Assembly (NCBI GenBank): GCA_016934825.1
Contig: JAFGSB010000150.1
Span: 1 to 64,000 of the forward strand
Direction: 5' to 3'
Source: Candidatus Zhuqueibacterota bacterium
GTDB taxonomy: Bacteria; Zhuqueibacterota; Zhuqueibacteria; Residuimicrobiales; Krinioviventaceae
Length of the DNA: 64,000 bases
The notes under the pieces: model-generated
The model's input: only the letters and a program-made list of their open reading frames with translations
Database searches by the model: none
Told to the model about the DNA's origin: nothing
Position numbers and translations under genes: made by a program
Part shown: one piece after another, positions 19,694-61,409 of the stretch
Numbering within the stretch: the first letter of the stretch is position 1
Layout of the letters: each line of letters opens with the position of its first letter

Positions 19694-19855
19694 TTTTTCT
19701 ACTTTTTACTTGCACAAATTCTGATTTATCTTATCTTTAATAATAACAACTCTTCATAATATAGGGTGGATTCGGGCAATTTTCTCTTTGCTGTTCAATA
19801 CGATTGGAATTTTTATCCTAATTTATATAGGAAAAAAAATGACCAGTAAGATAAG

Positions 19856-19925
19856 GTAGGGTGCGCCAAGGCACACCTACATGTGTGGCTCTGATTATTT
19901 GGTGGTGCGCTAAAGCACACCCTAC
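19856..19925. repeat. REP pair (BIME-like) 2
   Basis: It starts GTAGGGTGCGCC and ends GCACACCCTAC, so the unit ends are inverted copies of each other. Each half is itself a small hairpin (GGTGCGCCAAGGCACACC and GGTGCGCTAAAGCACACC). It ends 46 bases before the RAYT start codon. Confidence 0.85.
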
Positions 19926-19970
19926 TTTTAAATAATAACAAAAAATTTAACCAAAACATAGAGGGGAAAA

Positions 19971-20525
19971 ATGCCTGATTATATTCGTGTAAAAATCGAG
20001 GGCGGCACCTATTTTTTCACGGTGGTCACGTATAATCGCCAACCCGTATTCAATGATCCACATGCGCGGGAATTATTAAAAAAATCAATTAATAATACAA
20101 GACGAAAATATTCTTTTAAAATAATTGCAATATGTTTAATGCCGGACCATATTCATTGTATCTGGCAATTGCCGCCGGGTGATTTTGATTATTCATTGAG
20201 ATGGAGAAGCATTAAAGGTTTATTCACCCGGGAATATTGTCTTGATAAAAAAAATCCTCCTGAGAAAAACCCATCCCGAACAAAAAGACGTGAAAGGTAT
20301 GTTTGGCAGCGTCGTTTTTGGGAACACACCATTCGGAATGAAAAAGATTTGTATACACATATTGATTATATTCATTACAATCCGGTTAAACATGGATATG
20401 TAAAAAATCCGTTGGATTGGCCGTGGTCAAGTGTTCATAAATTTGTGGAATTGGGATTATATGATGATTTATTGAACGAAAATATTTTTATGAAATTAAA
20501 TAATAAAAATTATATGGGTGAGTAG
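19971..20525 (+). CDS. REP-associated tyrosine transposase (RAYT, Y1/HUH family)
   Basis: A 184-residue single-strand DNA transposase of the Y1_Tnp group. The HUH metal motif is in LMPDHIHCIWQLP (near residue 58-70). The catalytic tyrosine lies in the helix HIDYIHYNPVKHGYV (near 132-146). The N-terminal block GGTYFFTVVTYNRQPVF and the ending DWPWSSVHKF are classic RAYT features. It is flanked on both sides by REP pairs, and its stop overlaps the first bases of the right-hand pair. RAYTs are domesticated relatives of IS200/IS605 transposases thought to move or maintain REP sequences. The frame is intact, so it may be active. Confidence 0.95.
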   Translation: MPDYIRVKIEGGTYFFTVVTYNRQPVFNDPHARELLKKSINNTRRKYSFKIIAICLMPDHIHCIWQLPPGDFDYSLRWRSIKGLFTREYCLDKKNPPEKNPSRTKRRERYVWQRRFWEHTIRNEKDLYTHIDYIHYNPVKHGYVKNPLDWPWSSVHKFVELGLYDDLLNENIFMKLNNKNYMGE

Positions 20526-20601
20526 GGTGCGCCTCGGCGCACCTTATATGTGCGGGTTAAATTATTCAAATTATTGGGTGGTGCGCTAAGGCACACCCTA
20601 C
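20522..20601. repeat. REP pair (BIME-like) 3
   Basis: GTAGGGTGCGCC at the left and GGCACACCCTAC at the right, with hairpins GGTGCGCCTCGGCGCACC and GGTGCGCTAAGGCACACC. It is the best-preserved copy and begins within the RAYT stop codon region. Confidence 0.9.
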
Positions 20602-20645
20602 ATTTACGACTAAAACACACTACATTGCGGCCTTAATTATTGAAT

Positions 20646-36631: not shown

Positions 36632-36889
36632 AATGGGCGTTTAACCAACTCTACTCCTGGGTGGAAAAACCGACGTCCGGTAGCGTTATCCGGGTTGTCG
36701 TCGCCAATCTGTCATTTCGAAAAGCGAAGCGAAAAGAAATCTTGTAAATCAACGCCCCGGGATGTCGTCTTTTTGAATGACGATCAAATGAAAAAGACAG
36801 AATCCTAAAAATAATACATCCCGGGGCGTCGTTCACGATTGCTAAATCTTGAAAACCGGTTTTGGAAATCCCGGACAAAGCAATATACG
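36632..36889. other. Repeat-bearing intergenic segment
   Basis: About 260 bases. It holds a 135-bp repeat (36697-36831) and a short AAAACCGGTTTTGG-like element (about 36853-36868) that recurs near 38632. Confidence 0.7.
36697..36831. repeat. 135-bp structured repeat, copy 1
   Basis: Copy 1 of a 135-bp unit that recurs at 38745-38879 with, by eye, only two differences. It has outer arms ACGCCCCGGGATGT (36752-36765) and its complement (36816-36829), inner arms GTCTTTTT (36767-36774) and AAAAAGAC (36791-36798), and a leading segment CATTTCGAAAAGCGAAGC. It would fold into a long hairpin as RNA or single-stranded DNA. Confidence 0.9.
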
Positions 36890-37243
36890 TTATTTATAAT
36901 TGTTCAAAATTTCTGTAATATTTTTCTTCAGTGCCGGCAATTCATTAACGACCACGTTCCAGGTCAATTTCAAATCCACACCAAAATATTCATGGATCAA
37001 TTTGTCCCGCATACCGGCAATGCTTCTCCAGGGGATTTGATTTTAGTCTTTTTTAATATTCACCGGGATGTTTCTAACCGCCTCACCGATAATTTCCAGT
37101 CTGCGGATCACCATGTCCTGCGTCTTTACCGATTCCATAAAATTTTCTGCCGTTACATCCCGGGTATATTCTTCAATCAGAGCAATGCACTCCAATATAT
37201 GTTCAAGGAACAGTTTCGGGTTCTTTTTCATAGAAAACCTCAT
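36890..37243 (-). pseudogene. hepT: HepT-like toxin gene interrupted by a stop codon
   Basis: A 118-codon HepT (DUF86) gene with one in-frame TAA at 37043-37045. The first part (66 residues) has the family start LFLEHILECIALIEEYTRDV and MVIRRLEIIGEAVRNIP. The sequence after the stop continues in the same frame, WRSIAGMRDKLIHEYFGVDL, and carries the catalytic RNase motif R-x4-H-x-Y. So the stop removes the active site from the first product. HepT toxins cut RNA and are silenced by AMP addition by MntA. The antitoxin gene overlaps its start. The stop could be a natural inactivation or a sequencing error. Confidence 0.8.
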
Positions 37244-37523
37244 GTTCGCTCAGAATTGCCGCTTTTATACGGGGATGAATGGAAGCATAGGTAAGCACAT
37301 CAACCTTGTTCTCCAAAATTTCTTCGAGATCGTTTTCAAGATTAACAAGATCGAACAAAGATTTTCCCTCTGTAAATTCAACCAGTAAATCAATATCACT
37401 TCCGGGTTTTTGCTCACCTCGTACCCAAGAACCAAACAGTGATGCTTTTACCACCTGGTATTTTTTTAATACAGGGATTACTTTTTCCCGAATGGTTTCA
37501 ATAGTCACGGGTAGTAACTCCAA
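37203..37523 (-). CDS. mntA: MntA-like nucleotidyltransferase antitoxin
   Basis: A 106-residue MNT-fold protein. ASLFGSWVRGEQKPGSDIDL (near residues 27-46) holds the GS-x10-DxD motif of antitoxins that AMPylate HepT. Its end overlaps the start of the HepT gene by 41 bases, the usual order being antitoxin first. The gene is intact while its partner is broken, so it may now be orphaned. A single ancestral module is the simplest reading. Confidence 0.9.
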   Translation of the reverse strand: MELLPVTIETIREKVIPVLKKYQVVKASLFGSWVRGEQKPGSDIDLLVEFTEGKSLFDLVNLENDLEEILENKVDVLTYASIHPRIKAAILSEHEVFYEKEPETVP

Positions 37524-38023
37524 TAATACATTAAAATTGGTTGTTTAAAAAGTCCGTCCCATAGTAATCTTGTGCAGGGTAATAATTATTAATGAAATAT
37601 TCAATTTTACTTTACTCATTTTTCCAGCAATAATCAAGAAATATTTAAATATCTGTTCGCCACGCATAATAAAGGGGTTATGCCCAATCAATGAACAGCG
37701 TGTAGGCAGGCGTGTCGCCAACCTTTTTATATTCGGGTGTTCATACAACAAGGGGATGCTACCCCTTGTTGTATGAATTTCGGACTCTACAAATAAATTA
37801 ACCGAAGATGAATTCCAATAAAAGCAGATACATTGAACAATTTTTCTCCATTCTGTCTTGAGGTTTTTATATCTCTCATCCCTAAAATACCCAGCTAAAA
37901 TACAATAAAAATTACATAAATTCATTGTATTTGAATTTACCCACTCTGAAAATTGTTATAATTACAACCTATTCAATTTAAAAATAAGCCGAAGTACTAA
38001 CGATTAAAGAAAGGTGGTGCGAT
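37524..38023. other. Intergenic stretch upstream of the SnoaL-like gene
   Basis: About 500 bases. It contains only the palindrome at 37742-37775 and the presumed promoter of the next gene. A 126-codon minus-strand frame here has no recognisable family and reads through the palindrome, so it is not called. Confidence 0.5.
37742..37775. repeat. CAACAAGGGG-type palindrome, copy 1
   Basis: Long inverted repeat: CATACAACAAGGGG pairs with CCCCTTGTTGTATG around the loop ATGCTA. Related copies are at 41158-41188 and 61081-61106. It lies in an AT-rich gap without a supported gene (37524-38023). Confidence 0.85.
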
Positions 38024-38497
38024 ATGAAAAATTTTAAAATCACCCTTTCGGTATTATTAGTGCTTTGTATGATTTTATTGTTACCCAGAATATCCTTGTC
38101 TCAGGAATGGTCGGAACAGCAAAAAACAGTATGGGAAGCCGTGAAAGCAAACTGGCAGGCGATTGAAGAGCGGAATCTTGAAAAATTTTTAAATGACCTG
38201 CACCCGGATTTTATGAGTTGGAATTATATACGTGATCTTCCGCAGAATAAAGATTCTCAACGAAAATGGAACCGATTTTATTTTGAAAACGAAAAAATGC
38301 TCGTTTATGAAATCACACCTGTTGCGATTCAAATTATAGAAAATACCGCTGTTGCACATTATTATTTTTATCAAATAATCGAGGATGCTGAGGGGAAAAA
38401 ACAAACTCGAAAAGGTCGATGGACGGATATTCTTATAAAAAAAGACGATAAATGGATATATATCGGCTGGTATGGTGGGGTTGTAAAACAGAATTAA
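38024..38497 (+). CDS. Secreted SnoaL/NTF2-like (DUF4440-type) protein
   Basis: A 157-residue exported protein with a signal peptide (residues 1-27, ending ISLSQ). The mature part is a single NTF2-like cone fold: KANWQAIEERNLEKFLNDLHP at the start, LHPDFMSWNY, then EITPVAIQIIENTAVAHYYF strands and RWTDILIKKDDKWIYIGWYG at the end. Such proteins bind small ligands or act as simple enzymes; no catalytic residue can be assigned. A ribosome site AAAGGTGGTG precedes the ATG. A decayed duplicate lies at 39520-39986. Confidence 0.8.
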   Translation: MKNFKITLSVLLVLCMILLLPRISLSQEWSEQQKTVWEAVKANWQAIEERNLEKFLNDLHPDFMSWNYIRDLPQNKDSQRKWNRFYFENEKMLVYEITPVAIQIIENTAVAHYYFYQIIEDAEGKKQTRKGRWTDILIKKDDKWIYIGWYGGVVKQN

Positions 38498-39519
38498 ATA
38501 TGCATTAATTTATTTGATATCTTTACAGGTACTTCGGCTTATTAAACCGTACTTTCCCTGGTCACACAGAGTTACCCAACTCTGCGTAAATTATCGCCGG
38601 GTTTCTAATCCGGCTAAAATTGCTAAATCGTGAAAACCGGTGTTGGAAATCGGTTGCCATTTCTCGTCCGGGGATACAAATCCCCTCAAGAGCCTGAATT
38701 ACGCATCGCATAAAGGCGATGCATTCCGGGGCGTTGTACGGGCCGTCGTCGCCAATCTGTCATTTCGAAAAGCGAAGCGAAGAGAAATCTTGTAAATCAA
38801 CGCCCCGGGATGTCGTCTTTTTGAATGACGATCAAATGAAAAAGACAGAATCCTAAAAATGATACATCCCGGGGCGTCGCAAAATGCTCAATGTGTAGTC
38901 CCCCTGTGGATACAGATAAAATTATTCGTAATTATTGATTCGGGGACAAGGATGGGCATTATAACTATTATAAAAGGTGGACTACACCTGGTTTTTCAAA
39001 ATTTAAGGTGATGCGTCCCGGGGCGTCGTTCATGAGAAAAGATTTCTCTCGGAGATCGAAATGACAGAAACGATGTAACTTTATCAATCTGCGTCATCCG
39101 CGTAATCTGCGAGAGATGTTTTTTTACTCTGATCGCAGAGCCCTGACCACACAGGGTTACCTGACCGCGCGCGCCGCAGGGGAAAATCCGCCTGATGCAT
39201 AATTGAAGAATACTAATCAAGCAGTTATTATTCGGTGGCTGCGCAATTTTAGTTTGTTGGATGGGCGTGTTGCCCATTATTATTCATCCGGTTTTCCAGA
39301 ATAATATACGACCGGTCAGACTCTAATAAAATCAAGTATGAATATTTAATATTACACACGTGTTTTTATCCACCCCTTATCTCGGACATTTTCGGTCAAT
39401 TTCAGCAGAATTTCATATATTTTCAGTATTTTTGAATATAAACACGTTTAAAATTGTTATTATTATATCCAACTTTATAAATAAGCCAGACAATAACGAT
39501 TAAATAAAGGTGGTAAAAT
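38498..39519. other. Repeat-rich intergenic kilobase
   Basis: No supported gene. It holds the second 135-bp repeat (38745-38879), a CGCATCGC-ATAAAG-GCGATGC hairpin near 38702-38722, parts of related elements near 38995-39070, and a promoter-like duplicate leading to the pseudogene at 39520. Confidence 0.6.
38745..38879. repeat. 135-bp structured repeat, copy 2
   Basis: Same 135-base length and order as 36697-36831, differing by eye only at one base in GCGAAGCGAA(A/G) and one in AAAAAT(A/G)ATAC. Both copies are in the same orientation, 2.05 kb apart. Confidence 0.9.
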
Positions 39520-39986
39520 GTGAAAAGTAATAAAATCACTCTGCCGTTATTAGCAGCGCTTTATTTTCATTTTTGACAACCAGATTCATTTTGTTTCAGG
39601 AATAGTAGGAACCGCAAAAGCAAGTATTAAACACCTTTAAGGCAAACTGCATTCGTCTAAAGATAAGAATTTTAAAATTTTAAGTGATCTGCACGCGGAT
39701 TTTATATGTTGGGATTATTTACGCGACCTTCTAAAAAAAAGATACTCAACGAAATTGTACCCGATTTTATTTAGAAACTGATAAAATACTCGTTTACGAA
39801 ATCACACCAGTTGCGATTCAAATTATCAATAATAGCGCCGTTGTATATTATTATTCTTTTCAAATAATTGAGAATAACGAGGATACCGGAACAAATCCCA
39901 AAAGGTCGATGAACATATATTCTTTTAAAAAGAACAAAAAATGGAAATATATTGGCCGGCATGGCGGAACAGTGTATAATGATTAG
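39520..39986 (+). pseudogene. Decayed duplicate of the SnoaL-like gene at 38024
   Basis: The sequence follows the 38024 gene from its leader (ATAAGCCAGACAATAACGAT against ATAAGCCGAAGTACTAACGA) through to its end. The end reads WKYIGRHGGTVYND in place of WIYIGWYGG and then stops. Many frameshifts and stops break it: TGA after the first 17 codons, several in the middle, and the start ATG directly followed by TGA. Segments such as EITPVAIQII and SDLHADF are still readable. It is a tandem duplication in decay. Confidence 0.9.
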
Positions 39987-60387: not shown

Positions 60388-60582
60388 TTTTCACCCGGTA
60401 CCTTTTTATTATCAAAAATAATAAAGTTCTGCAATCCTGAACAACGCCCCGGAGTGGGAACTAAACTTTTAAAATGCTTCTACGTTGAAAAATTTCTCGC
60501 TGATATCGCGGATCACGCAGATTGATAATGACACATCATCTCTGTAATTCCGATCTCCGAGAAAAATTTTTTCTCGTGAACG

Positions 60583-60663
60583 ACGTCCCGGGATGTATCA
60601 CCTATAGAGATATAATAACTTTTTCATATACCCGTAGTCCATTTAAACGACATCCCGGGGCGT
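60583..60663. repeat. Hairpin with ACATCCCGGGGCGT arm (related to the 135-bp repeat)
   Basis: ACGTCCCGGGATGT (60583-60596) faces ACATCCCGGGGCGT (60650-60663) over 53 AT-rich bases. The arms equal those of the 135-bp repeat with one change, but the interior differs. Confidence 0.8.
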
Positions 60664-60677
60664 TGGTCTATTACAGG

Positions 60678-60877
60678 ATTTCTCTTGACTTCGCTCATCG
60701 AAATGACAGATTGGTGAAAAAGTCCTGATTGATCCACGCCCCGAGTTAGACGACACTCCGGGGCGTAGATTCGAATAATTTATTAAATGCAGGCCTGGAG
60801 TGCATCGCCTTTATGCGATGCGTACCCCTGCTGTCGTCCATAAAGTGACAGCGCTCCGGCACAACATCCGGGGCGTG
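60678..60877. repeat. ~190-bp repeat, copy 1
   Basis: It begins ATTTCTCTTGACTTCGCTCA and ends ACAACATCCGGGGCGT, with an inner ATCGCCTTTATGCGATGCGT hairpin. The second copy at 61227-61409 follows it in the same order with scattered changes. The first 40 bases are the inverse complement of the leading segment of the 135-bp repeats. Confidence 0.75.
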
Positions 60878-61106: not shown

Positions 61107-61226
61107 CATGGAAATTGCGGGATAATATCATCGCAAACGAATGCAGATAAATAAAACAATTATGTCATTTCGACCGCAGGGAGAAATCTTTATTGTGCAT
61201 AAACCGTTGACTTTGCATGATCTTAA

Positions 61227-61409
61227 ATTTCTCTTGACTTCGCTCATCGAAATGACAGATTGGTGAGTAAGGCCTGTTTGATCCCCACCCCGGGGTGTGG
61301 ATTCGAATAATTTATTAAATGCAGACCCGGAGTATATCGCCTTTATGCTATGCGTACCCATTCTGCCGTCCATCTAGGGACAGCGATCCAGCACAACATC
61401 CGGGGCGTG
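61227..61409. repeat. ~190-bp repeat, copy 2
   Basis: A diverged direct copy of 60678-60877, about 545 bases downstream. The inner hairpin reads ATCGCCTTTATGCTATGCGT and the end is ACAACATCCGGGGCGT, as in copy 1. Confidence 0.75.

Follow-up and report, generated by a model that had tools for sequence, protein, structure and literature searches.

A 78-bp palindrome nested in head-to-head REP pairs in the genome of a Candidatus Zhuqueibacterota bacterium

We analyzed two nearly identical 135-bp repeats in a stretch of 64,000 nucleotides (the window) from the genome of a Candidatus Zhuqueibacterota bacterium and find that each consists of a left REP arm followed by a palindrome, here called H, and that both are fragments of a mosaic of palindromic repeats lying between genes. 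It is likely, in our judgment, that a non-autonomous repeat of the REP/BIME type was entered by this lineage-specific palindrome and that the composite then multiplied, with the near-identity of the two copies being the product of recent copying or gene conversion.

Composition of the 135-bp stretch

The initial annotation had described two self-folding repeats that are equal in length, differ by eye at two bases, and have different surroundings. Its coordinates and the common length are correct, the differences are exactly two (positions 36734 and 36813, A/G in both cases), and the similarity between the copies covers 149 nt at 96% identity with nothing beyond. The outer inverted arms that it named, ACGCCCCGGGATGT and ACATCCCGGGGCGT, form a perfect inverted repeat of 14 bp (36752-36765 and 36816-36829), and pairing is likewise predicted for the inner arms, GTCTTTTT and AAAAAGAC. 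The RNA fold of copy 1 has a predicted energy of -40 kcal/mol (z -4.6) and the DNA fold one of -26.6 (z -6.0), with 0 of 200 shuffles being equally stable; copy 2 is two bases away from copy 1, which is the copy whose fold was compared with shuffles.

When the window's own genome (5.39 Mb in 179 contigs, designated C plus a number) was searched, the view of the 135 bp as a unit did not survive. Nucleotides 1-50 and 56-134 are found separately at many places, many of the partial matches being restricted to the first ∼50 nt and a few to nt 56-134, so the 135 bp are not a natural unit and the boundaries first assigned are not the true ones. The same search corrected the number of copies, with three near-full copies (the two in the window and a third, at 93% identity, at C7:88415) and three more that are full-length at 73-76%.

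The left REP arm (AL) reads TGTCATTTCGA-13 nt-GAGAAATC in the 135-bp stretch and TGTCATTTCGA-13 nt-GAGAAATCTTG at complete loci. It is followed by H, a 78-bp palindrome with the ends ACGCCCCGGGATGT...ACATCCCGGGGCGT, which at complete loci runs ACGCCCC...GGGGCGT, and after H comes the right arm (AR), AAGATTTCTC-7 nt-TCGAAATGACA, in inverted orientation. At the complete loci, one in the window and one each on C89 and C71, the two REP arms thus stand head to head with H in the spacer between them. Copy 1 stops shortly after H, where it joins another dispersed repeat, and its right arm is missing, whereas 3' of copy 2 a 123-bp palindromic insert is followed by a second H right end and then by the right arm (Table 1).

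Table 1. Coordinates of repeat modules in the window
Feature	Position	Strand
Copy 1 of the 135-bp stretch: left REP arm and H, without right arm	36697..36831	+
AL of copy 1, TGTC-tagged, 13-nt loop	36710..36742	+
H of copy 1, 78 bp, 14-bp arms	36752..36829	+
Piece of another dispersed repeat (TTGCTAAATC.TGAAAACCGG), also at 38619-38651	36838..36870	+
Second TTGCTAAATC.TGAAAACCGG piece, upstream of copy 2; the C7 copy has a diverged version upstream	38619..38651	+
CGCATCGCATAAAGGCGATGCA hairpin repeat, frequently upstream of left REP arm	38700..38730	+
Copy 2 of the 135-bp stretch	38745..38879	+
AL of copy 2	38758..38790	+
H of copy 2	38800..38877	+
Palindromic insert (GTGTAGTCC...GGACTACAC) between copy 2 and its right arm; a relative lies on C7	38880..39002	+
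Second copy of H right end	39003..39026	+
AR of copy 2, 7-nt loop, inverted relative to AL	39040..39066	-
Complete AL-H-AR composite: AL 60676-60708, H 60583-60663, AR 60543-60569	60543..60708	-
Plain REP pair without H: AL 61225-61257, AR 61163-61189	61163..61257	-

An MNT-like nucleotidyltransferase gene lies at 36880-37523 on the minus strand, and beside it there is by eye a putative HEPN partner with a stop inside its reading frame. By way of this nucleotidyltransferase, the nearest named relatives were identified as MAGs that carry the label candidate division KSB1 or Calditrichota; several others are labeled only "bacterium."

Distribution of the REP pair and of H

We read ∼0.81 Mb of the own genome as stretches, many of which were chosen for holding matches, so that densities are biased upward. 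By pattern these contain 43 REP arms, with loops that are nearly all 7 or 13 nt long, whereas composition-matched random sequence gave about four arm matches for an equal length (12 in three runs). Within 300 bp there are 13 tag-out pairs compared with 5 tag-in neighbors, which amounts to a head-to-head preference, and each tag-out pair joins a long-loop and a short-loop arm; one pair is counted twice because of overlapping stretches, with one of its loops mis-measured by the pattern. Plain pairs, lacking H, are common in the own genome and have a conserved spacer of ∼41 nt. A covariance model of the REP pair has matches in 17 of 60 genomes (the own genome and 16 of 59 relatives from the same genus, family, and class), and as the model accepts related pairs, this gives the spread of the kind and not of one sequence.

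The tag is TGTC in nearly all of the arms found and CGTC in some relatives. The stem starts with A, T, reading ATTTC...GAAAT in the own genome and ATTGC/GCAAT or ATTCC/GGAAT in relatives, and one stem pair changes in a compensatory way across relatives, being T-A, C-G, or G-C and complementary in all but two of their scanned arms; within the own genome the stems are almost invariant, which makes covariation of the REP pair uninformative there. One relative (G037; L181 and others) has nine equal-scoring REP pairs, four of them near contig starts, and the one that was read is of the TTGC/GCAA type. These pairs perhaps reflect a recent spread.

H is 77-81 bp long, mostly 78, with 14-bp arms that are perfect or near-perfect. 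Its pattern has 14 matches in the sampled own-genome sequence, of which a few are questionable in length or content; a Markov control gave no match. A model search found 19 places in the own genome and none in 39 relatives, at 118 candidates scored per genome, a depth at which weak copies may escape, and the pattern had no match in GTDB genome contigs, a set from which the own genome is possibly absent. Among the genomes searched, H is specific to its own lineage. Seven copies sit in REP spacers, with similar junctions (window 36752, 38800, and 60583; C7:88468; C33:31958; C71:55575; C89:9069), and the remaining ones are found in part beside a REP pair and in part alone with unrelated flanks. 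Three H-arm palindromes also occur within 1 kb at C8:1-1300 (L124), amid locally repeated DNA.

The flanks GTAATAAATCC and TTTCAAAGA border H both on C89 (L068) and on C33 (L056), where H lies between them in inverted form. This defines the borders of H and shows that it has either turned over in place or come into the same site the other way round. Spacers that contain H and spacers that lack it can be aligned well only at their ends, and hence we infer the insertion of H and do not see it directly. Diverged copies have their arms and length in common and are little alike in the interior; the arms are the less variable part of the palindrome. One stem pair has changed on both sides, with covariation otherwise weak. 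The two-sided change lends weak support to pairing and fits RNA, single-stranded DNA, or inverted binding sites alike.

The stability of the fold and the lower variation of the arms are what would be expected if the hairpin were a structured RNA, as the initial annotation had offered, or a transcription signal for adjacent genes. We regard this as very unlikely, given that Rfam and tRNA scans of the window were empty, that a terminator scan found nothing at the H hairpin, that two-sided changes are limited to the single pair, and that the 39 relatives yielded no H. The gene context of the repeats is also mixed (6 convergent, 6 divergent, 5 same-strand, and 5 overlapping predicted ORFs), with no clear orientation bias by crude ORF calls. 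The presence of a gene cassette between the copies prompted consideration of integron attC sites, and no attC-like core sites were seen by eye.

Copying and the search for a mover

Window 38557-38881 and C7 carry repeats in the same order, but the AL-H part is 95.6% identical between them and the part that precedes it only 74.9%. Given also the 98.5% identity between the window copies, these alignments suggest that AL-H was recently copied or converted among the two window sites and C7, which is in keeping with the recent movement or gene conversion first proposed. Copying and gene conversion are inseparable on the present data.

Two near-identical copies 2 kb apart might instead come from one local segmental duplication, the more so as a SnoaL-like/DUF4440 gene region in the same stretch is also duplicated, in tandem (37910-38478 and 39409-39967, 74.5% DNA identity). 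However, the gene duplicates are offset by 1.5 kb at that identity and the repeats by 2,048 bp at 98.5%, the flanks of the repeats do not match beyond 149 nt, and further copies lie on other contigs. A single duplication event is already contradicted by these data, and we consider this origin extremely improbable; the case that the initial annotation had named as refuting its reading, two copies only and one local duplication of a larger segment as their source, does not apply. One relative from the same genus was examined. It retains ThuA and the nucleotidyltransferase gene but differs in the downstream region, and for the C71 locus the two flanks are on different contigs. With synteny lost at both loci tested, no empty site was seen or could be demonstrated, and movement is not directly seen.

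The own genome has seven Y1_Tnp matches, one of which, on C86, sits among REP and H modules, as might be expected if the REP pair were a REPIN moved by a REP-associated Y1 tyrosine transposase (RAYT). Against this, the two RAYT-like genes closely examined (window and C86) each bear their own GTAG-type repeats, and CGTC-type REPs occur in the flanks of 2 of 37 Y1_Tnp loci in 11 genomes, which is no excess over the ∼4 predicted from the own-genome REP density. Movement by a RAYT is on this evidence improbable. The RAYT-like gene of the window (∼19970-20530, within 19840-20620) is bordered by its own GTAGGGTGCGC...GCACACC repeats. The C86 locus (L033, C86:69462-72830) comprises a RAYT-like gene and GTAG-type repeats, with a REP-arm/H junction on either side and both junctions pointing the same way.

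It is also conceivable, if rather doubtful, that H is a conventional MITE, derived by deletion from a DNA transposon whose transposase recognizes the 14-bp terminal inverted repeats, with the nesting in REP pairs being incidental. Such an origin would account for the near-constant length of 77-81 bp, the perfect or near-perfect terminal arms, and the stand-alone copies with unrelated flanks. However, among the 59 end-like matches listed for this draft assembly, from which a parent may be missing, there is no plausible parent transposon with H ends; the sole gene bounded by them is the C86 Y1 transposase with its own GTAG-type repeats, and no target-site duplication is visible by eye in the H flanks read. 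In the wider sense of a dispersed non-autonomous repeat, the MITE-like reading of the initial annotation is broadly correct: the modules are spread over many contigs and mostly intergenic, and amplification of H is limited to one lineage. Its two expected companions did not appear, as no linked transposase was found and no clean target-site duplications were seen.

Relation to known repeats and proposed history

A literature search by sequence string gave no relevant match, and comparison was made with described families. In the CGTC-tagged REP superfamily (Di Nocera, De Gregorio and Rocco 2013, PMC3733652), the tag is often TGTC, the stem of 8-9 bp starts with A-T/T-A and encloses a loop of 4-5 nt, and head-to-head heterodimers have conserved or structured spacers; these REPs are without a dedicated transposase, and REP dimers inside palindromes have been noted in other organisms. 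The REP pairs described here share with them the outer TGTC tag (a reported variant of CGTC), the A-T, T-A stem start, the head-to-head heterodimers, the conserved spacer, and the absence of a dedicated transposase. They differ in the outer stem, which in own-genome arms is shorter than the 8-9 bp of the superfamily criterion (5 bp followed by purine mismatches), in the spacer, which can carry an independent 78-bp palindrome, and in the host lineage (KSB1/Calditrichota), which is outside the five phyla given for the superfamily. Judged by these sequence features, the REP part fits the CGTC/TGTC-tagged superfamily, with stem and loop lengths that do not clearly match.

Like the BIMEs of E. coli and the Neisseria CGTC-1/dRS3 mosaics (as cited in PMC3733652), the repeats are intergenic mosaics of short palindromes in recurrent order, although the sequences are other ones and H is in seven cases nested inside the REP pair and not beside it. 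With REPINs (Bertels and Rainey 2011, PMC3116915) they have in common inverted REP doublets that form a hairpin and a short, dispersed, non-autonomous nature, but they have neither a GTAG tag nor a linked RAYT. H resembles MITEs in being short, non-coding, and near-constant in length with terminal inverted repeats, and differs in that neither a parent transposon nor a target-site duplication was found.

In the history that we favor, H would have become lodged in the spacer of a single REP pair, after which a trans-acting enzyme would have spread the resulting AL-H-AR composite through the genome as a non-autonomous element. Copy 1 would have lost its right arm and copy 2 would have received a further palindromic insert, which together made the 135 bp resemble a unit, and the near-identity of the window copies and the C7 copy would stem from recent copying or gene conversion within the composite. 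A cellular function is not needed as an explanation.

A more speculative idea, which we hold to be unlikely, is that palindromes here serve as favored insertion sites for other palindromes. Nesting is seen where H lies in the REP-pair spacer and where a third palindromic insert lies at an H arm, and in relatives outer inverted repeats enclose REP pairs (TAGACTTCTGCAAAA in G045, with a shorter match in G039, and GTAACAGTTCAG in G040). The loci L185, L186, and L192 hold REP pairs within the outer inverted repeats TAGACTTCTGCAAAA, CTTCTGCAAAA, and GTAACAGTTCAG. Were such targeting real, it would point to an enzyme whose insertion sites are the tips of hairpins or extruded single strands, which could be the mover of CGTC-type REPs.

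The ingredients of this mosaic are mostly ordinary, and the nested REP-H composite is a modest novelty; apart from it and the extension of the host range, what we describe is ordinary intergenic repeat biology. The CGTC-type REP kind is extended to an uncultured bacterial group, and H provides a countable passenger (19 copies, none found in the relatives searched) whose events may be datable by means of sister strains.
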